Shown: piece after piece, positions 14,816-29,380 of the stretch
How positions within the stretch are numbered: position 1 is the stretch's first letter
Layout of the letters: each line of letters begins with the position of its first letter
From: Acidocella sp.
Lineage (GTDB): Bacteria; Pseudomonadota; Alphaproteobacteria; Acetobacterales; Acetobacteraceae
Assembly: GCA_026224875.1 (NCBI GenBank)
Contig: JAMFRU010000024.1
Location: 1-40,495, forward strand
Length of the DNA stretch: 40,495 nucleotides
Reading direction: 5' to 3'
Made by a program: the position numbers and the translations under genes
The notes under the pieces: generated by a model
Databases searched by the model: none
Told to the model about the DNA's origin: nothing
What the model saw: only the letters and a program-made list of their open reading frames with translations

Positions 14816-16840
14816 TTGCGGAGACTGGCTCGCTTACTGGCTCGCTTACTGGCACATGCGCGCCGCGGGGTTCGAAACTTGGACTTTAATCCGTCAGGCA
14901 GATTTTACGGCCTGCTCTGTGCCGCCGCCATCGCCTATTTCGCGGTCATTGTGGCGGCTTTCGCTGGTTTGATCCCGCTGGGCTACTGGCACGACGAATA
15001 CATGACATTCGCCACCATCCGCAGCGGCGGCCTGTTATATAGCGCTTCGGTCCTCATGACCTGGATCCCGCGGCCGGTATCGGATCTGCTCGTGCTCATC
15101 TACGGATGGCTCGCCGTGACCATGCGTGGCGAGATGATGACCAGCGCGCTGGCACCCGTCTGGTTGCTGTTGTTCGTCTGCACAGCCGTGTCCCCGTTTG
15201 TGTTTTTCCGGCACGCCACAGCCACGGCAAAATGCGCGCTTGGCGTGCTGGCCATGGCGCTGATGTGCTCGTTCCTGCTGGGCCATCCCGTGGCCGAGGC
15301 CTTCTACTTTCCGATGGCGGCCTTTGCCTATCTGCCCACCCTCGCGGGGATGACGATTTTGCTTTGGTCGCTCTGTGCCGGTGATACGCGGAGCCGGGGC
15401 GGGAATGTGCTGCGCGGCGGCGCCTTGCTGGTGGCCGCATGGAGTTCCGAAATCGGGGCGATTTTTACCTTTATCTTCGCATCCATGGTGATGGCGGTCC
15501 CCGTGGCGTTCAGCCTGTTGCGCGGCCGGCGCCCCTCCTTCCGTTTCATCAAAGCATGGCTGGCGGTGCCGCTGGCCGGCGCGCTCTGGATGCTCTACAA
15601 AGTCGCCACCGGGCGTGCCCAGGATGCGCATGAGGGTGCAGGCTTCGGTAACGATGCGGTGCGCCACCACGCGCTCAACGCGCTGCTCGCGACCGGCCCC
15701 GGCTTCGACAATGAAATGTTTTCGCTGGGCACCAACATCGCTTCCACCATGGCGATCAAAGTGCTTTTTCTGACCGGCGCCTATCTCATTTTGTCGCTGC
15801 TACCGAGCAAGCCGCTCAAACCTGAGCATCGTGAAGCAGCCTATTACCTGGCAGCTCTTGCGATTGCCGCCGTCGCGACGTTTTTTGCAACCATTGCGGC
15901 GGCTTTCTATCAATACGGCATGGATTGCTGCGAACATCATGTCACGACGCGCCAGGACCTGATCTTCATCGCTTTAATTGCCGTGGCCGCCGTGCCGGTT
16001 TTGCGCGGGCATGGCATTACCCGCCAGAACTGGCTGCGCCCGGCCGGTGTTGCGTGTCTGGCCCTGGCTGTAACAATCCCGATGCACACGGCATTGCCGG
16101 CGCTGGCCTCGAATTATATGATTTACGATACGATTACCGCCACGAAGATCGAAAACTGGCGCGCTGGACTGTCCCCCGCCCCATCCATGAATTTCGTGGT
16201 GCCGCCGCAGGGAGAGATTGTCGGCGGGCTGTCCGGTATGGACGGGACTTTTAAAATCCCCAACGCCCCTGGGAGCGCATTCAATACTGGTCCGTTTTTA
16301 CAGCTCGACGTCGCGCTGTTTTTCAACAAGCGGAGCATCACCTTCATCTCGGCAGGGCAAAGCGTGGCACTGGCGGATGTGGGACCTTTGGTGCGGCTGA
16401 TCGATATTGCCCGGTTCACGCCCGTTAAAGCGTCCGTTAAAACACGCGCCGCCGTAGCCTCGGGCGCATGCTCGCTGAACCCGATTGGTACGCAGGCGCC
16501 GGGGCCAGGGATGACGGTCTCGGCCGATGATGTCGTTCCCATCTCGGGCTGGGCGCTCATGAACGGGCTCGGGCATCTGCCCTCCGCCGTGTTTGTAACG
16601 TTGCACGGCGCCAAGGGCGATTTTTCCGTGCGCACGGCGAAAGGCGATGTACGTACCGACGTAACCGCGTATTTCCATCTGCCCGCGGCGCTGGATGATT
16701 CCGGGTTTCACGTGAACGCCGATTTTTCCCGCGTGCCCGATGGGCAATATCAGTTGTCCATTCGCGCCTTGCGCGGCCACTGGGTGCAGACATGCGGAAT
16801 GTTTCCGCTTACGGTTCAACACGCCAAAGCCTCCCGCTGA
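14816..16840 (+). CDS. large integral membrane protein, GT-C glycosyltransferase-like
   Basis: A protein of up to 674 residues that I do not recognise by name. An N-terminal membrane helix (about 32-54) is followed by YWHDEYMTF, an acidic Asp-Glu pair in the first exported loop as in GT-C glycosyltransferases that use polyprenyl-phosphate sugars. Roughly ten further hydrophobic helices extend to about residue 430, and the last 240 residues form a soluble, probably periplasmic domain with beta-rich character. The TTG start at 14816 is uncertain; TTG at 14879, preceded by GGGG, would remove 21 residues. It is divergent from ftsK. GT-C membership is inferred from topology and the acidic pair only. 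Confidence 0.7.
   Translation: MRRLARLLARLLAHARRGVRNLDFNPSGRFYGLLCAAAIAYFAVIVAAFAGLIPLGYWHDEYMTFATIRSGGLLYSASVLMTWIPRPVSDLLVLIYGWLAVTMRGEMMTSALAPVWLLLFVCTAVSPFVFFRHATATAKCALGVLAMALMCSFLLGHPVAEAFYFPMAAFAYLPTLAGMTILLWSLCAGDTRSRGGNVLRGGALLVAAWSSEIGAIFTFIFASMVMAVPVAFSLLRGRRPSFRFIKAWLAVPLAGALWMLYKVATGRAQDAHEGAGFGNDAVRHHALNALLATGPGFDNEMFSLGTNIASTMAIKVLFLTGAYLILSLLPSKPLKPEHREAAYYLAALAIAAVATFFATIAAAFYQYGMDCCEHHVTTRQDLIFIALIAVAAVPVLRGHGITRQNWLRPAGVACLALAVTIPMHTALPALASNYMIYDTITATKIENWRAGLSPAPSMNFVVPPQGEIVGGLSGMDGTFKIPNAPGSAFNTGPFLQLDVALFFNKRSITFISAGQSVALADVGPLVRLIDIARFTPVKASVKTRAAVASGACSLNPIGTQAPGPGMTVSADDVVPISGWALMNGLGHLPSAVFVTLHGAKGDFSVRTAKGDVRTDVTAYFHLPAALDDSGFHVNADFSRVPDGQYQLSIRALRGHWVQTCGMFPLTVQHAKASR
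14825..14848. repeat. 12-base tandem repeat at a gene start
   Basis: CTGGCTCGCTTA occurs twice head to tail and a third partial copy (CTGGC) follows. It lies in the first codons of the membrane-protein gene if the TTG at 14816 is used, encoding a repeated L-A-R-L unit. Being a multiple of three, copy-number change would keep frame. The rest of the ftsK gap (14541-14815) shows no recognisable gene. Confidence 0.6.
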
Positions 16841-17110: not shown

Positions 17111-18460
17111 TTAAGTTTCCAGCATCCGGCGGAGCAGGTCCACGTCTTCCGCGAACGCTGCATCGGTGCCGATGAGTTCGGTTACGCGGGAGACGGCGTG
17201 CATCACGGTGGTGTGGTCGCGGTCGCCGAAATGGCGGCCGATGTCGGGGAGGCTTTTCGATGTGAGCTGTTTGGCCAGGTACATGGCGACCTGGCGGGGG
17301 CGGGCGATGTTGCGGGCGCGGCGGGCGGAGGACATTTCGGCGACGCGGATGTTGAAATGTTCGCAGACGCGCTTCTGGATTTCCTGGATGGAGACTTTGC
17401 GGTCGTGCGCTTTTAGCACGTCGTGCAGGACTTCGTGCGCGGTTTCCATGGTGAGGTGGCGGTTGAAGAGGTTGGCATGGGCGACGAGGCGGTTGAGCGC
17501 GCCTTCGAGTTCGCGGTTGTTGGAAGTGATTTTGCGGGCGAGGAATTCTATGACCTTGGCCGGGACTTCGACGCCGGCGCGCTGGGCTTTGGCTTCCAGG
17601 ATGGAGTAGCGCAGCTCGAAGGTGGTGGCGTGCAGATCGGCGACCATGCCGCAGCCAAGGCGCGTGCGCAGGCGGTCTTCCAGGCCGGAGAGATCCGAGG
17701 GGGATTTATCGGCCGAGATGATGATCTGTTTGCCGGCATCGACCAGAGCGTTGAAGGTGTGGAAAAATTCTTCCTGCGTATTGTCCTTGCCGATGAGAAA
17801 CTGCAGGTCGTCGATCATCAAAACGTCAACGCTGCGCAGCTCATTCTTGAAATCCAGGGTGGATTGCGAGCGCAAGGCGTTGATGAAGCGGTACATGAAT
17901 TTTTCCGCCGACATATAGGCGACGGAGACCGGCTTGCCGCCGCGCGTGCGGGAGGAAATTTCCCAGGCGATGGCGTGCATGAGATGCGTTTTGCCGAGGC
18001 CGACGCCGCCATACAGGAAGAGCGGGTTGAAGCCGGCGGTGTTGGGTGCCTCGGCCACGCGGCGGGCGCAGGCATAGGCGAATTCGTTGGGCTTGCCGAC
18101 GACGAATGTTTCGAAGGTGAAGCGCTGGTCGAGCGGGGCCGCACTTTCCGGGCGCGCGGGGGCTGCCTGTACCACCGGGGCAGTTGTCGGCTCGGCGAGG
18201 TTGGGGGCGGCGGCGCGCGAGGCGGCGGCGGTGCGGAAGTCTATGCGCCGGATGGCCGCGTTCTCGGTCTGCCACAACGCGGTGATCAGCTCGCCGTATT
18301 CCTTGTTCACCCAATCGCGCAGAAACCGTGTGGGGAGGATGACGGTGACCTCATCGCCAGCGACGCCCGCGAACACGACCTGTTTGAGCCAAGTACGGTA
18401 TTCGACATCGCCGACTTCAGCCTGCAGGCGGGCGCGCACACGTGACCACTGCTCACTCAT
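17111..18460 (-). CDS. dnaA: chromosomal replication initiator protein
   Basis: AAA+ ATPase that binds DnaA boxes, melts oriC and loads DnaB. The 449-residue protein has domain I at the N-terminus (MSEQWSRVRARLQAEVG), a short linker, the AAA+ domain with Walker A GGVGLGKTH (about 149-157) and Walker B VLMIDDLQF (about 213-221), and the helix-turn-helix domain IV with the signature GDRDHTTVMHA near the C-terminus. I chose the ATG at 18460 because GGAGG stands eight bases ahead on the minus strand; the frame is open 27 codons further but without family similarity. It follows rpsT on the same strand, an arrangement known in alphaproteobacteria. Confidence 0.97.
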   Translation of the reverse strand: MSEQWSRVRARLQAEVGDVEYRTWLKQVVFAGVAGDEVTVILPTRFLRDWVNKEYGELITALWQTENAAIRRIDFRTAAASRAAAPNLAEPTTAPVVQAAPARPESAAPLDQRFTFETFVVGKPNEFAYACARRVAEAPNTAGFNPLFLYGGVGLGKTHLMHAIAWEISSRTRGGKPVSVAYMSAEKFMYRFINALRSQSTLDFKNELRSVDVLMIDDLQFLIGKDNTQEEFFHTFNALVDAGKQIIISADKSPSDLSGLEDRLRTRLGCGMVADLHATTFELRYSILEAKAQRAGVEVPAKVIEFLARKITSNNRELEGALNRLVAHANLFNRHLTMETAHEVLHDVLKAHDRKVSIQEIQKRVCEHFNIRVAEMSSARRARNIARPRQVAMYLAKQLTSKSLPDIGRHFGDRDHTTVMHAVSRVTELIGTDAAFAEDVDLLRRMLET

Positions 18461-18812
18461 GCCTGGTTCCTCCAGCCGCGGTGCGAAAGATTTTGGCATA
18501 GCATCGCCATCGCGCATGGAACTGATCTCCAGGCTCATCATCTACCCCGCCTTCCCCCTGCCCATACCATTGCTCAAAGCCTTAAGCCCCAAACCAGGCA
18601 CAAAGCTCCCCAATCCGGAAAAAGCCTTACGCAAAATTACGCGGACCTTAACTTTCTCAGAAATGAGATTGTGACCAATGGTATCTTGAAGCTCGGACAG
18701 TACGGCGAAAGCATAAGATGATGCAAGCTTTGAAATGTCGCCGCGTTGGTAGACAAGTCGCTGTATCACGGGAATAAAGAAACAAAATCAGAGTGTTATT
18801 TAGTTGGTTCTT

Positions 18813-25010: not shown

Positions 25011-25592
25011 TCAGGTAAGGCGCGCGACCTCTGATTTGAGACGCGGCAATATTTCGTTCCCGAACCATGGGTTTTGCTTTTCCCAGCCGGAGGTGCGCCA
25101 GGACGGGTGCGGCAAGGGCAGAAACTTGCCCCCTGCCCCTGCCCGGACGTTTTCCGTCATGCTGGCTTTGCCGAGGTAGCGCTTTTGCGCGTAGCCGCCG
25201 GCGAGCAGGATCAATTCCAGTTGCGGCAATAACGCTAAAAATTTACCGTGCCATGATAGCGCGCATTCCGGGCGCGGCGGGGCGTCGCCGCCATTGGGCA
25301 GGCGGCCGGGGTAGCAAAAGCCCATCGGCAAGAAGCCTATTTTTGAGGAATCGTAGAATATATCACGGCCTATGCCCATCCAGCCGCGCAGGCGGTCGCC
25401 GGAGGCGTCGTCAAACGGCTGGCCGGAGATGTGTACCTTGGTGCCGGGCGCCTGGCCGATGATCAGCAGCCTTGCTGTTGGCGAGACGCGGAATACCGGG
25501 CGGGGGCCCAACGGCAAAACGGCGGCGCAGAGGGTACAGCCTCGCGCTGCCGTTGCTAGTTGGTCCAGCGGTGTCAGAGGCTCGTGCGCCAC
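25011..25592 (-). CDS. uracil-DNA glycosylase family protein
   Basis: A 193-residue UDG-superfamily enzyme expected to excise uracil or related bases. Motif 1 is GQAPGTKVHISGQPFDD (about 46-62), and the closing motif is LPHPSW (about 159-164), with His as in HPSP. Cysteines in GCTLC (19 and 22), GFCYPG and PECAL could hold an iron-sulfur cluster as in family 4 enzymes. The GTG start lies 19 bases inside the end of the cytochrome c1 gene, so it is probably translated from the same message as the bc1-like operon. The exact UDG family and base preference are not determined. Confidence 0.85.
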   Translation of the reverse strand: MAHEPLTPLDQLATAARGCTLCAAVLPLGPRPVFRVSPTARLLIIGQAPGTKVHISGQPFDDASGDRLRGWMGIGRDIFYDSSKIGFLPMGFCYPGRLPNGGDAPPRPECALSWHGKFLALLPQLELILLAGGYAQKRYLGKASMTENVRAGAGGKFLPLPHPSWRTSGWEKQNPWFGNEILPRLKSEVARLT

Positions 25593-26278
25593 ACTTTGCG
25601 CTTGGAGATGATGGCGATGATCGCGAGGAAGGCGAAGAAGATGATGGCGCGGAAGCCGATCAGATGTTTCGCATCGAGGTTGGGATCCGCCGTCCAGGTG
25701 AGGAACTCGGCGACGTCTGCTGCTTCCTGCGCGGTGGTGGTTGGGGCGCCGTCTGCGTAGGTTACCGCGCCGTCGTGCAGGGCGGCCGGCATTGCCGTTT
25801 GGCCGCCGGGGAAGGCTGCGTTGTAGTAATGGCCGGGAAGAAGTGAGACGCCGGCCGGGGCTGGCGCGTAGCCGGTGAGGTAGTCGTAGATATAGCGCGG
25901 GCCGGGGCGCTGGGCGACGATGCTGGTGAGGTCGGGCGGGACCGCGCCGCCCATGTCCATGGGGGCCGCACCTTTTAGGGCTGAGTCAAGATTACCACCG
26001 GCCGCGGCGGCTTCGCCGGCGGCCTGGTCGGGGGTTAGGCCGAGGGCTTCGAGGTCGCGGTAGTGGACGCCGCTGACGGAGTGGCAGCCGGCGCAGACCG
26101 ATGAGAAGACCTGGAAACCGCGTTGGGCGGCGGCTTTGTCGATGGTGCCAAGCGCGCCTTGGCTTTGGAATTTTAAGGGCGACAGCGTGTCTTCAGCATG
26201 TGCGGCCCGGGGCGCAGCCGCAACAAAGCTAAGCGCGACAAGGCTGAATGCCAGAAGTGGAGCTAAAATGCGGCGCAT
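25574..26278 (-). CDS. petC: cytochrome c1 subunit of a degenerate bc1 complex
   Basis: A 234-residue membrane-anchored c-type cytochrome. A cleavable signal (about 1-28, ending AHA-ED) precedes the heme-binding motif VCAGCH (Cys62, Cys65, His66); the axial methionine is likely Met163 in GGQTAMPAAL. The V-P-P-D-L segment (113-117) and YIYDYLTGYAPAPAG (129-143) are typical of cytochrome c1. A C-terminal helix (about 207-225) ends in K-R-K-V-W for membrane anchoring. It is shorter than usual: the region between the heme motif and V-P-P-D-L lacks the P-N-E segment. The ATG shares one base with the cytochrome b stop. The heme site, unlike those of its partners, looks intact. Confidence 0.9.
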   Translation of the reverse strand: MRRILAPLLAFSLVALSFVAAAPRAAHAEDTLSPLKFQSQGALGTIDKAAAQRGFQVFSSVCAGCHSVSGVHYRDLEALGLTPDQAAGEAAAAGGNLDSALKGAAPMDMGGAVPPDLTSIVAQRPGPRYIYDYLTGYAPAPAGVSLLPGHYYNAAFPGGQTAMPAALHDGAVTYADGAPTTTAQEAADVAEFLTWTADPNLDAKHLIGFRAIIFFAFLAIIAIISKRKVWRTSL

Positions 26279-27399
26279 TATTCGGCCTCCATCGCCGTGA
26301 CCACCGGGGTGATGACCAAAAAGTGGAAAAAATACCAGGTGGTGAACACGCCGGCCAAAGTGCTGGCGAGCGCGCAATGGGAATGGGCGGCCCAGCCCAG
26401 GCCGATGACGTCTAGCGCCAGGAGCCAGATGAAGAAGCCGTAGACCTTGCCTTTGGCGCCGTTGGCGCCGGAGCGGTCCAGCCAGGGCAGTGCGTAGAGC
26501 ACTGCCGCGGCGGCGATTGCGGCCAGAATGCTGAGGGTCGCGGTGGGGAATACGCCGAGCAGACCGGCGGCAGGGGCCAGATACCAGGGCACGGCGGCAC
26601 CAATTGCCACGGTGAGATCCGTGGCGGGCAGCTGGTTCATATGCGTGCTGCTGATGTGCGGCGCGTAGAAGGCGAGGATGACGAAGATGAAGGCAAACAC
26701 TGCCAGAGCCGCGAAATACTGCGCCAAGTAATACGGGTAGAACGCAACAGCGCGGGCTGGGGCGACGGGCAGTGCCACGGCCTTGCGGCTGGCGTGGATG
26801 AGCCAGACCACCAGCAGCAGGGAGGCTGCCAGCAGCGCGTGGAAAACTTCGAGCCGGGCGAGCGTGCCGCCGCCGGCGGGGCCGCCGAAGAACCACAGGC
26901 CGACAGCGCCGGGCAGGCTGCCGAGCGAGAGAGCCGCGTTGGAGGCGTTGAACAGCGACCAGTAGCCGGCCGCACCGCCGGTGAGCACATAGCCCAGCCA
27001 GCCGGTAAGCAGCAGAATGGCCAGGAGCTTGACGCTGAGCAGCCAGACGAACTCGCCGGGGGCGCGGTAGGCGCGGGTGAGGACGGCGCGGAAGAGATAG
27101 AGATAGGTGACGGCGAAAATCATCGTCGTGCCGGTGGCGTGGTAGGCGCGGATGAGCCAGCCGTTGTTCACGTCACGGTCTATGAATTGCACCGAATCGA
27201 AGGCGTGCCAGGGGTTGTAGTACACCGCCAGGACAATGCCGGAGAGGGTGAGGAAGGCCGCCGCAACCGCGATGAGGAAGGGGAAGGCCTCGAAATACGG
27301 TGCGCCGGGGGCGCGGTTTTTCTGGCAGAAGGTGGCGCACAGGCTGCCGAGATATGGCAGGCGCGTGGTTGCCCATGAGGTCTTGCTTTGCGTTGTCAT
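26278..27399 (-). CDS. petB: divergent cytochrome b subunit lacking the heme bH helix-B ligand and PEWY motif
   Basis: A 373-residue, roughly eight-helix membrane protein clearly homologous to bc1 cytochrome b: AFDSVQFIDRDVNNGWLIR (66-84) is nearly canonical. The bL ligands are present, His87 in YHATGTT and His187 in EVFHALL. The helix-B ligand of heme bH, 14 residues after His87, is Tyr101 (YLYLFR). In helix D the residue 14 after His187 is Ile201, but His202 follows; the 15-residue spacing occurs in cytochrome b6. The Qo motif PEWY reads VPWY (270-273), losing the Glu, and the usual P-W-G-Q after G-Y-V-L is T-G-G-A. Shorter than typical cytochrome b (400 or more). Confidence 0.9.
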   Translation of the reverse strand: MTTQSKTSWATTRLPYLGSLCATFCQKNRAPGAPYFEAFPFLIAVAAAFLTLSGIVLAVYYNPWHAFDSVQFIDRDVNNGWLIRAYHATGTTMIFAVTYLYLFRAVLTRAYRAPGEFVWLLSVKLLAILLLTGWLGYVLTGGAAGYWSLFNASNAALSLGSLPGAVGLWFFGGPAGGGTLARLEVFHALLAASLLLVVWLIHASRKAVALPVAPARAVAFYPYYLAQYFAALAVFAFIFVILAFYAPHISSTHMNQLPATDLTVAIGAAVPWYLAPAAGLLGVFPTATLSILAAIAAAAVLYALPWLDRSGANGAKGKVYGFFIWLLALDVIGLGWAAHSHCALASTLAGVFTTWYFFHFLVITPVVTAMEAE

Positions 27400-27402
27400 G
27401 AT

Positions 27403-27957
27403 TCAGCCCAGCTTGATCTGCGCGGCGTTGAGGAAAGTGTAGCGCGGGATGGCGAGGTTCTTCACCGCCGGGCCTTTGCGGACGCGGCCCAGCGGGTCGT
27501 ATTCGCTGCCGTCGCAGGGGCAAACCCAGCCGTTGAAGTCGCCGCGCGGGTCGGAGGTGGCATCGCCTTCCAGCTCGCAGGGCGTGGCGGTGTTCAGGCC
27601 GACGACGACCACGAAACTCGGGTAGCCGGCGTTTACGCGCGCGGAAAAATCGGCCGGGTCCACCAGAGTGGAGGTGACGAGGAACTCGTTATCAGCGACA
27701 TCCTTGGCGGTGAGCTTGCGGATGGTGACCGGCAAACCGCCCCACTGCACAGTTTTTGCAGTATTTTCGGCAATATCGGCAACATTGACGATGAGGTGTG
27801 CTGCACCTTGCGCGGCCGCATCGGGGTTCAGCGCGTCGACCACGGGCCAGAGAATGGCACCCCCCGCTACCGCGCCGGTGGCGGCTGTCAGAAGGGTTAA
27901 AAATTCACGCCGGGAACCCCCGTGCGCCGTCACCTGTGATGCTGCTGATTCAGCCAA
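27403..27957 (-). CDS. petA: Rieske-like subunit lacking [2Fe-2S] ligands
   Basis: A 184-residue homologue of the bc1 Rieske protein. A twin-arginine signal anchor SRREFLTLLTAATGAVAGGA (15-34) is followed by W-P-V-V-D-A-L-N-P-D, as in true Rieske subunits, and the C-terminal RVRKGPAVKNLAIPRYTF is canonical. The two cluster-binding boxes are altered. CTHLGC reads NTATPC (Asn122, Ala124, Cys127), and CPCHGS reads CPCDGS (Cys146, Cys148, Asp149). Three of four cluster ligands are gone, while both disulfide cysteines remain. I chose the TTG at 27957, six bases after AGGGGAG, because no ATG or GTG serves before the signal. It heads the operon, three bases ahead of cytochrome b. Confidence 0.9.
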   Translation of the reverse strand: MAESAASQVTAHGGSRREFLTLLTAATGAVAGGAILWPVVDALNPDAAAQGAAHLIVNVADIAENTAKTVQWGGLPVTIRKLTAKDVADNEFLVTSTLVDPADFSARVNAGYPSFVVVVGLNTATPCELEGDATSDPRGDFNGWVCPCDGSEYDPLGRVRKGPAVKNLAIPRYTFLNAAQIKLG

Positions 27958-28060
27958 TGTCGTCTCCCCTGGAGCAATCAACTCCTGAACACACGCATGA
28001 CGGCTCGGGAAGAAAATTTCAAGAGTGGATGGACGCGGGAGTTTTGCGTATGGGGGTGCC

Positions 28061-28915
28061 ATGAGCACAATTGCCCCACATGATGCCCTGAAATCCGATG
28101 TTGCCGCCTGGTTTGTCCAATTGCGAGACCGGATTTGCGGGGAGTTCGAGGCCATTGAGGATATGGCGGGGCCGAATCCCGGGCGGTTTGAGCGCACCAG
28201 CTGGGACCGGCCGGATGGCGGCGGTGGCGTGATGAGTGTCATCAAGGGCCAGGTATTTGAGAAGGCCGGGGTAAATATTTCCGTGGTGCAGGGGAATTTT
28301 ACGCCGGATTTCGCGGCAAGGATTCCAGGGACCGAGGCGGGGGCGGCGTTCTGGGCGGCGGGGATTTCACTCGTGGCGCATCCGCGTAGCCCCAAACTGC
28401 CGGCGGTGCATATGAACACGCGTATGATGGTGACGGCCAAGGGCTGGTTTGGCGGCGGGGGGGATTTGACGCCCTTGCAGCCGGGCACCGCGGCGGCGGT
28501 TGAGGATACGGCAGGGTTTCATGCGGCGTATAAGGCTGCTTGCGACCGGCATGACCCGGCGTATTACGAAAAATTCAAAAAATGGTGCGATGAATATTTT
28601 TATCTGCCGCACCGGCAGGAGCCGCGCGGGGCGGGGGGGATTTTTTACGACTACCTCGACTCCGGCGATGCGGTGGCGGATTTCGCTTTTACCCGTGATG
28701 TGGGGGAGGCTTTTTGTGCGGCTTATATGCCGATTGCCAGGCGAAGGTTTGCCGAGACTTTCACGCCCGAGGAGCGCGAGGCGCAGTTGATACGGCGCGG
28801 GCGGTATGTGGAGTTCAACCTGCTGTATGACAGGGGTACGACGTTTGGGTTGAAAACCGGCGGCAAGGTGGATGCGATACTCATGTCCATGCCGCCGGAG
28901 GTCAAATGGCCGTGA
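28061..28915 (+). CDS. hemF: oxygen-dependent coproporphyrinogen III oxidase
   Basis: Oxidatively decarboxylates two propionates of coproporphyrinogen III to vinyl groups in heme synthesis, using O2. The 284-residue protein carries the family signatures: VHMNTRMMVTAKGWFGGGGDLTP (in the centre, about 121-143) with the conserved His and Asp, KWCDEYFYLPHRQEPRGAGG (about 179-198), and GRYVEFNLLYDRGT (about 246-259). I chose ATG 28061, preceded by GGGGG; the frame is open 12 codons further. It is divergent from the bc1-like operon across 103 bases, so heme supply and a cytochrome complex may share a regulatory region. Confidence 0.96.
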   Translation: MSTIAPHDALKSDVAAWFVQLRDRICGEFEAIEDMAGPNPGRFERTSWDRPDGGGGVMSVIKGQVFEKAGVNISVVQGNFTPDFAARIPGTEAGAAFWAAGISLVAHPRSPKLPAVHMNTRMMVTAKGWFGGGGDLTPLQPGTAAAVEDTAGFHAAYKAACDRHDPAYYEKFKKWCDEYFYLPHRQEPRGAGGIFYDYLDSGDAVADFAFTRDVGEAFCAAYMPIARRRFAETFTPEEREAQLIRRGRYVEFNLLYDRGTTFGLKTGGKVDAILMSMPPEVKWP

Positions 28916-29380
28916 TTACGGGGTGATACCCACGCCACCTGGGGTAATGACGATCGAAGGTGGGGCCACGTAAACCGGTGGGGGTGGCGCGTAATAGGCC
29001 GGCGGCGGGGCATAATAGCCCGGCTGCGGTACCACATAGACCGGTTGCGGGCCGTAATAACCGTAGCCCGGGCCCCAGCCTGGGTACCAATGCCAGCCAT
29101 GATTCGGGCCCCAATAACCGTGGCCGTTGTAATCGTGATAGGCTTGGTGGCCGTCCCAGCCATGGCCATTATAGCCGCCGTGATAGCCTGGGCCGCCGTG
29201 CCAGCCGTTGCCACCGCCGCCGTGATCGTCGCCGCGACCGTCGCCGTGCCCGTCGCCGTGCCCGTTGTTGCCGCCGCCGTGGTTACCCCAGTCGGCATGG
29301 GCCGGGGCCGTTGTTAAAGCCAGGCTGCCGAACAAAGCCGCGGCCACGGCGCTTAAGCGGAATAGTGATCTAAACTTCAT
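28916..29380 (-). CDS. exported Gly/His-rich protein with Tyr/Pro tail
   Basis: A 154-residue protein with a signal peptide of about 29 residues (ending AHA-DW). The mature part has a Gly/His/Asn/Asp repeat region (about 30-85, built on N-G-H-G and D-G-H-G units), then an aromatic segment with Trp and Tyr (about 88-110), then a P-P-x-Y-Y-A-P-P region of proline and tyrosine (about 112-150). The histidines suggest metal binding in the periplasm or on the surface, but that is inference. It is convergent and directly abutting with hemF: the two stop codons are adjacent. No known family beyond composition. Confidence 0.75.
   Translation of the reverse strand: MKFRSLFRLSAVAAALFGSLALTTAPAHADWGNHGGGNNGHGDGHGDGRGDDHGGGGNGWHGGPGYHGGYNGHGWDGHQAYHDYNGHGYWGPNHGWHWYPGWGPGYGYYGPQPVYVVPQPGYYAPPPAYYAPPPPVYVAPPSIVITPGGVGITP

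Follow-up and report, generated by a model that had tools for sequence, protein, structure and literature searches.

Results

The petABC Operon and Its Cofactor Sites

Contig JAMFRU010000024.1 of an Acidocella sp. genome (assembly GCA_026224875.1; 3.87 Mb in 145 contigs, 95% complete) was analyzed over a stretch of 40,495 nucleotides, referred to here as the window. The three core subunits of a cytochrome bc1 complex, the Rieske protein, cytochrome b and cytochrome c1, are encoded side by side on its minus strand (Table 1). All three frames are open and tightly packed, with a stop/start overlap at the cytochrome b/c1 junction, and Pfam and NCBIfam searches identified Cytochrome_B (N and C parts), Cytochrom_C1 and Rieske_proteo/UCR_Fe-S_N. 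Profiles of the genus sequences matched solved cytochrome b chains (best E value 8.6e-58) and solved Rieske chains (best 1.1e-41). An earlier inspection of this DNA, the sequence-only reading, had placed an intact petABC operon here, with an end coordinate that proved to be the TTG start of the Rieske gene. It had also claimed that the Rieske cluster, heme bH and the Glu of the quinol oxidation (Qo) site are lost while heme bL and c1, with its CxxCH motif and Met ligand, are kept. Both claims held in a comparison of the genus sequences (35 Rieske, 36 cytochrome b, 35 c1) with 30 canonical Acetobacteraceae sequences. The canonical set was taken from the top of the score list, 30 loci out of 221 matching family genomes, a choice that favors canonical sequences.

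In the window Rieske protein, the first Cys ligand of the cluster is replaced by Asn122, the first His by Ala124 and the second His by Asp149, and Cys146 is retained. Across the genus, the first Cys is Asn and the second His is Asp in every sequence (35/35 each), the first His is Gly or Ala in all 35 (29 and 6), and the second Cys is retained in 23 and replaced by Ser in 12. The ligand set C-x-H/C-x-x-H of a [2Fe-2S] cluster was found in none of the genus Rieske proteins. The Cys pair of the Rieske disulfide (Cys127 and Cys148 in the window), about which the earlier inspection was silent, is present throughout (35/35 and 35/35), as is the Tyr adjoining the cluster (35/35). Near-invariant sites make up 26 of the 52 positions at residues 120-171 compared with 29 of the 130 elsewhere (p = 0.0006); the corresponding proportions in the canonical proteins are 28/52 and 26/128. 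Twenty-one canonical-invariant Rieske sites are replaced in the genus. Four of these replacements are wholly fixed, and two of the four are the former ligands Asn122 and Asp149. The chance probability of this fixation was 0.08 by a strict count and 0.028 by a looser one, and the fixed Asn and Asp were rejected as proof of new selection. An AlphaFold model of the Rieske protein resembles solved Rieske domains (1rie, TM score 0.90 by target length) and is usable for the soluble domain; because its confidence is lower at residues 121-140 (blocks of 60-66), no conclusion is drawn on the exact geometry of the tip.

In cytochrome b, both His ligands of heme bL are present in 34 of 35 genus sequences, the remaining one having H/L. 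The His pair of heme bH is complete in 0/35: nine sequences keep only the helix B residue, ten only the helix D residue and 16 neither. The window (His202) and three other sequences carry a His one residue past the helix D position, in each case with no bH His on helix B. Therefore, at most one natural bH ligand would be left, and His202 could conceivably serve as a lone ligand in the window. A tree was made from 35 Acidocella and six outgroup sequences with the two bH columns blanked; support is low at some of its inner nodes. On it, the presence of the bH His changes at least six times on helix B and four times on helix D (Fitch), a patchy loss that fits a freely drifting site. A structure model of cytochrome b from an alignment of 12 sequences was discarded (mean pLDDT 42.4).

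The quinone sites are altered as well. In the window, the PEWY motif reads VPWY, the Qo cd-loop PWGQM reads TGGAA, and the H/K/D residues of the quinone reduction (Qi) site read Y/Q/Y. The Qi His is kept in 15/36 genus sequences (one row is gapped at this position) and the Lys and Asp in 0/36 each. Only 1 of the 15 cd-loop sites is near-invariant in the genus, versus 14/15 in the canonical set. Because half of the Rieske tip sites are near-invariant and nearly all of those in the cd-loop are not, the cluster-free tip is, as judged from the sequences, still constrained and the quinol site is not. Cytochrome c1 keeps its heme motif and axial Met throughout (Table 1; c1 residue positions were counted by hand on the translation).

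Table 1. Features of the petABC locus in the window, with residue frequencies in the genus.
Feature	Coordinates	Strand	Description	Genus sequences
petA-like Rieske subunit	27957-27403	minus	184 amino acids, TTG start 27957, Tat-type N-terminus, TIGR01416 E 3.9e-36	
petB-like cytochrome b	27399-26278	minus	373 amino acids, PF00033/PF13631/PF00032	
petC-like cytochrome c1	26278-25574	minus	234 amino acids, PF02167	
Asn122	27592..27594	minus	replaces first Cys ligand of Rieske cluster	N in 35/35
Asp149	27511..27513	minus	replaces second His ligand of Rieske cluster	D in 35/35
His87	27139..27141	minus	heme bL ligand, helix B	H in 35/35
His187	26839..26841	minus	heme bL ligand, helix D	H in 34/35
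Tyr101	27097..27099	minus	at heme bH His position, helix B	His in 9/35
Ile201	26797..26799	minus	at heme bH His position, helix D	His in 10/35
Pro271	26587..26589	minus	replaces Qo-site Glu of PEWY	P in 36/36
c1 heme motif CAGCH (C62xxC65H66)	26081..26095	minus		CxxCH in 35/35
c1 Met163	25790..25792	minus	axial ligand	M in 35/35
Uracil-DNA-glycosylase-superfamily gene	25011..25592	minus	overlaps c1 end	
hemF candidate	28025..28915	plus	divergent neighbor	conserved beside operon

Occurrence and Conservation in the Genus

Cytochrome b was found in 36 of the 38 genus genomes, including the window's own, and in 23/23 good ones, defined by a completeness of 90% or more and a contamination of 5% or less; it is missing from G031 (85% complete) and G033 (77% complete). 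In the 35 other genus genomes, the cytochrome b frames among the matches listed are open with no internal stop, one being a fragment. The named relatives (11 loci) come from Acidocella aromatica, A. aminolytica, other Acidocella and metagenome-assembled genomes; among cultured strains, A. aromatica DSM 27026 and A. aminolytica carry the operon. The Rieske family (TIGR01416) was detected in 35/38 genomes, in 34 above the cut-off. Data are partial for G034 (a cytochrome b fragment at a contig end) and for loci L030 (partial Rieske), L017 (no c1) and L025 (cut c1). The sequence-only reading had allowed for a second, canonical complex in the host, and this was not borne out. No second bc1 was found: PF00033 matched once in the window's genome and there is one strong cytochrome b match per genus genome. 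Likewise, TIGR01416 gave no second bc1-type Rieske protein above the cut-off in any of the 38 genomes, its 11 further matches all lying below. An extra weak cytochrome b match in G019 was rejected after its locus (L049) proved unlike any of the three subunits.

The order Rieske-cytochrome b-c1 is uniform across the genus, and hemF adjoins the operon in 33 of 35 loci; the other two end at a contig edge just before the Rieske gene. Since there is one strong match per genome and the hemF neighbor is conserved, petABC has most likely been inherited vertically.

The three genes appear to be under purifying selection. Crude pairwise Nei-Gojobori dN/dS (nonsynonymous to synonymous substitution) ratios, obtained with a custom script, all fell below 0.45: cytochrome b ranged over 0.06-0.43 and c1 over 0.02-0.24 in 15 pairs, and the Rieske gene over 0.09-0.25 in 12 pairs. 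The Rieske values omit pairs L011-L018, L028-L030 and L046-L047, where Rieske frames were wrongly cut or truncated. Eight canonical pairs used as a control gave 0.05-0.56. Of the sites that are invariant in the canonical set, those retained by 90% or more of the genus number 39/64 in the Rieske protein, 38/59 in c1 and 44/197 in cytochrome b. The mean pairwise identities in the genus and canonical sets are 0.63 and 0.66 (Rieske), 0.65 and 0.61 (c1) and 0.50 and 0.79 (cytochrome b), a rough comparison as the sets differ in breadth.

The divergent neighbor of the operon we take to be hemF (coproporphyrinogen III oxidase) from recognition of its sequence, not from a family search. Beside it, at 28916-29380 on the minus strand, lies a gene for a 154-amino-acid Gly/His/Tyr/Pro-rich, secreted-looking protein with no Pfam match. 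The gene of the uracil-DNA-glycosylase superfamily recurs in only part of the genus, and neither its family match nor a comparison of neighborhoods gave evidence of a functional tie to c1. Elsewhere in the window, a 674-amino-acid frame with a TTG start and no Pfam match (14816-16840, plus strand) lies between the ftsK and dnaA regions. dnaA occupies 17111-18541 on the minus strand, and a replication origin may be near.

Other Genera of the Family

Thirty low-scoring family loci, picked by hand, were also compared. In the four loci of genus g96 (L104 in G230, L103 in G265, L106 in G132 and L107 in G188), both bH His residues are lost (4/4) and PEWY is changed to PPWY or VPWY. Only the fetched locus of G230 includes a Rieske gene, which has all four cluster ligands, and the c1 of G188, a good genome, is a 135-amino-acid remnant without the axial Met. 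The g96 loci read as a decay series. In the two loci of genus g54 (L097 in G166 and L098 in G251), the helix B bH His is replaced by Asn and PEWY by PQWY; the Rieske proteins have lost both ligand His residues and kept both ligand Cys residues, and the disulfide pair survives in L097 but not in L098. The derangement therefore differs between genera. From the accessible part of PMC10715153, we guess that g96 corresponds to Acidiphilium and g54 to Acidisoma. In two further loci, L100 (G050) and L099 (G066), cytochrome b keeps both bH His residues but has TVWY and PPWY instead of PEWY.

A complex that has lost so many residues might be a functionless vestige in slow decay. The strong relaxation of cytochrome b, seen both in its canonical-invariant sites and in its identity, would agree with this, as would the patchy loss of the bH His and the further decay of c1 in g96. 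However, the frames are open in 23/23 good genomes, dN/dS is well below 1 for all three genes, the Rieske tip is constrained and c1 is fully ligated in 35/35 sequences, so we regard a vestige as improbable. The sequence-only reading had likewise argued against random decay and expected orthologues to share the substitutions. They do recur, across 35-36 genus sequences, and the recurrence of the losses goes beyond chance. Simple decay is unlikely given an intact operon, losses shared by orthologues, genus matches free of frameshifts and stops, and the selective retention of bL and c1.

Possible Partners of the Complex

Degli Esposti et al. 2023 (PMC10715153) proposed that stabilizing Complex I is the specific reason why the dead complex persists. 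NuoA is indeed found in 32/38 genus genomes and in 21/23 good ones, three of the six genomes without it (G011, G007 and G027) have a strong NuoH, and solved bacterial supercomplexes containing complex III exist (e.g., 9fks). The proposal cites Paracoccus supercomplex work by Stroh et al. 2004. Nonetheless, G016, a 96% complete draft, has the bc1 genes although NuoA is absent and its one NuoH-type match is weak, and the family genomes G103 and G106 keep the bc1 genes with neither NuoA nor NuoH found. Conversely, 28 family genomes have no PF00032 match, and the 20 listed were tested further, among them G202, which has a PF00033 fragment. NuoA is present in 14 of these 20; the 14 good ones have PF00033 in 0/14 and NuoA in 11/14. 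Because 11/14 good genomes without cytochrome b keep NuoA, Complex I in the family does not generally need bc1. A dependence specific to Acidocella species is possible, but the published proposal is weakened and we consider it unlikely.

Another candidate partner is the terminal oxidase. Cytochrome c1, perhaps with bL, could pass electrons from a periplasmic donor on to cytochrome c oxidase while the remainder of the complex anchors it in the membrane. Consistent with such a tethered relay, c1 has its heme and Met ligand in 35/35 sequences and is the subunit least changed relative to the canonical set. Heme-copper oxidase subunit I was found in 38/38 genus genomes; in 30 of them it matched with E <= 1e-150 in a frame of 466-567 amino acids, and this strong short-frame type is read as cytochrome c oxidase. 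The accessible part of PMC10715153 suggests iron oxidation as an electron source for c-type cytochromes. However, genes of the cytochrome c oxidase type also occur in G136 and G192, which have no bc1, and G188 keeps two despite its broken c1. The relay would also leave the conservation of the Rieske tip unexplained. Heme attachment is needed for c1 folding, and it may persist only for this purpose. Taken together, a c1 relay seems rather doubtful.

The retention of bL and c1 would also suit a still-active quinol oxidase that uses another Rieske protein or a high-potential acceptor in trans. This is very improbable: no second bc1-type Rieske protein scored above the cut-off, the PEWY Glu, the PWGQM loop and the Qi residues are lost, and NrfD, which occurs in alternative complex III and elsewhere, was found in only 3/38 genus genomes and is absent from the window's own.

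Discussion

Sequence comparison suffices for the losses, their sharing across the genus, the purifying selection and the lack of a second bc1; the role of the complex has to be argued on evolutionary grounds. We favor, with a probability of about 0.5, a dead quinol:cytochrome c reductase that is kept as a structural component of the membrane, with c1 perhaps still active. The vertically inherited Acidocella petABC would still be expressed and its products would assemble into a bc1-shaped complex, probably with one heme b (bL) and one heme c1. Quinol oxidation would be impossible in the predicted absence of a [2Fe-2S] cluster, the Qo-site Glu, bH and a recognizable Qi site. The complex would instead serve the respiratory membrane as a protein platform on which cytochrome c and/or cytochrome c oxidase dock. 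The head of the Rieske iron-sulfur protein, bL and c1 may have been retained because they hold the assembly together, and c1 may still pass electrons to or from a soluble cytochrome c. The sequence-only reading, which had named a scaffold, a c1 relay and a sensor among possible roles, had seen in the pattern a selective dismantling of electron bifurcation. The selective retention of bL and c1 agrees with it, but this view is only partly right: constraint seems to be missing at the bH and Qo positions, whereas the Rieske tip is conserved.

Several observations weigh against a structural role. Family genomes that lack cytochrome b can nevertheless have Complex I, and likewise cytochrome oxidase. 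The bL pocket is predicted from two His residues only, and a Rhodobacter mutant in a bL ligand, H198N, assembles with an impaired Qo site (accessible part of PMC4330944), so that a need of bL for assembly is not firm. In addition, where three ligand positions are wholly lost, the fixation of Asn and Asp at two of them is suggestive, but only suggestive, of new selection. A different possibility is that evolution has rebuilt the complex for another task. The Rieske head, with its fixed Asn and Asp, disulfide and invariant tip, would then act without redox chemistry as a module for docking or ligand binding on a one-heme cytochrome b and a redox-active c1, forming a quinol-free membrane c-type relay or redox sensor. 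We hold this possibility only tentatively.

The Acidocella complex is a natural case in which a central energy-converting enzyme, predicted to have lost catalysis, is kept genus-wide as a protein complex. Should a role be shown, it would reveal which function of bc1 besides quinol oxidation is worth preserving, and it would test the idea that respiratory complexes persist for one another's stability.

The complex itself is already known, and the sequence-only reading was mistaken in taking it for an undescribed system. The loss was described in Acidocella in 2023, when Degli Esposti et al. (PMC10715153) reported a 'deranged' bc1 complex of Acidocella and Acidiphilium. According to the accessible part of that paper, the Rieske protein of Acidocella is missing three or four of its cluster ligands and keeps the disulfide Cys pair, cytochrome b lacks the bH ligands, and c1 is intact; Complex I stabilization and an iron-oxidation route of electrons to cytochrome c are proposed. 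The window shares the genus, the operon, the Rieske and bH losses, the disulfide pair and c1, and as far as that part of the paper goes it shows nothing different in kind. Beyond it, the present analysis adds the per-site counts over 35-36 genomes, the fixation of Glu to Pro, the Qo cd-loop and Qi losses, the dN/dS ratios, the patchy bH loss and the co-occurrence with Complex I, some of which may be in the figures or supplements of that paper. A literature search found no experimental work on the Acidocella complex, a weak negative given its poor coverage of subscription journals and preprints.

Among laboratory systems, the Rhodobacter H212N mutant has, like the window, had its bH function removed (accessible parts of PMC4807273 and PMC4330944). 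H212N and H198N are, however, single engineered changes with the Rieske cluster and the Qo site intact, and H198N hits bL, the site that Acidocella keeps. In yeast, the second heme enters at the bH site, after partial hemylation (accessible part of PMC9502982). Unlike the canonical alphaproteobacterial bc1 complexes (petABC/fbcFBC; 2yiu, 1zrt, 2qjp), the window has no [2Fe-2S] ligand set, bH pair, PEWY Glu, PWGQ loop or Qi H/K/D; it shares with them the gene order, the three protein families, the bL pair and the CxxCH and Met of c1.

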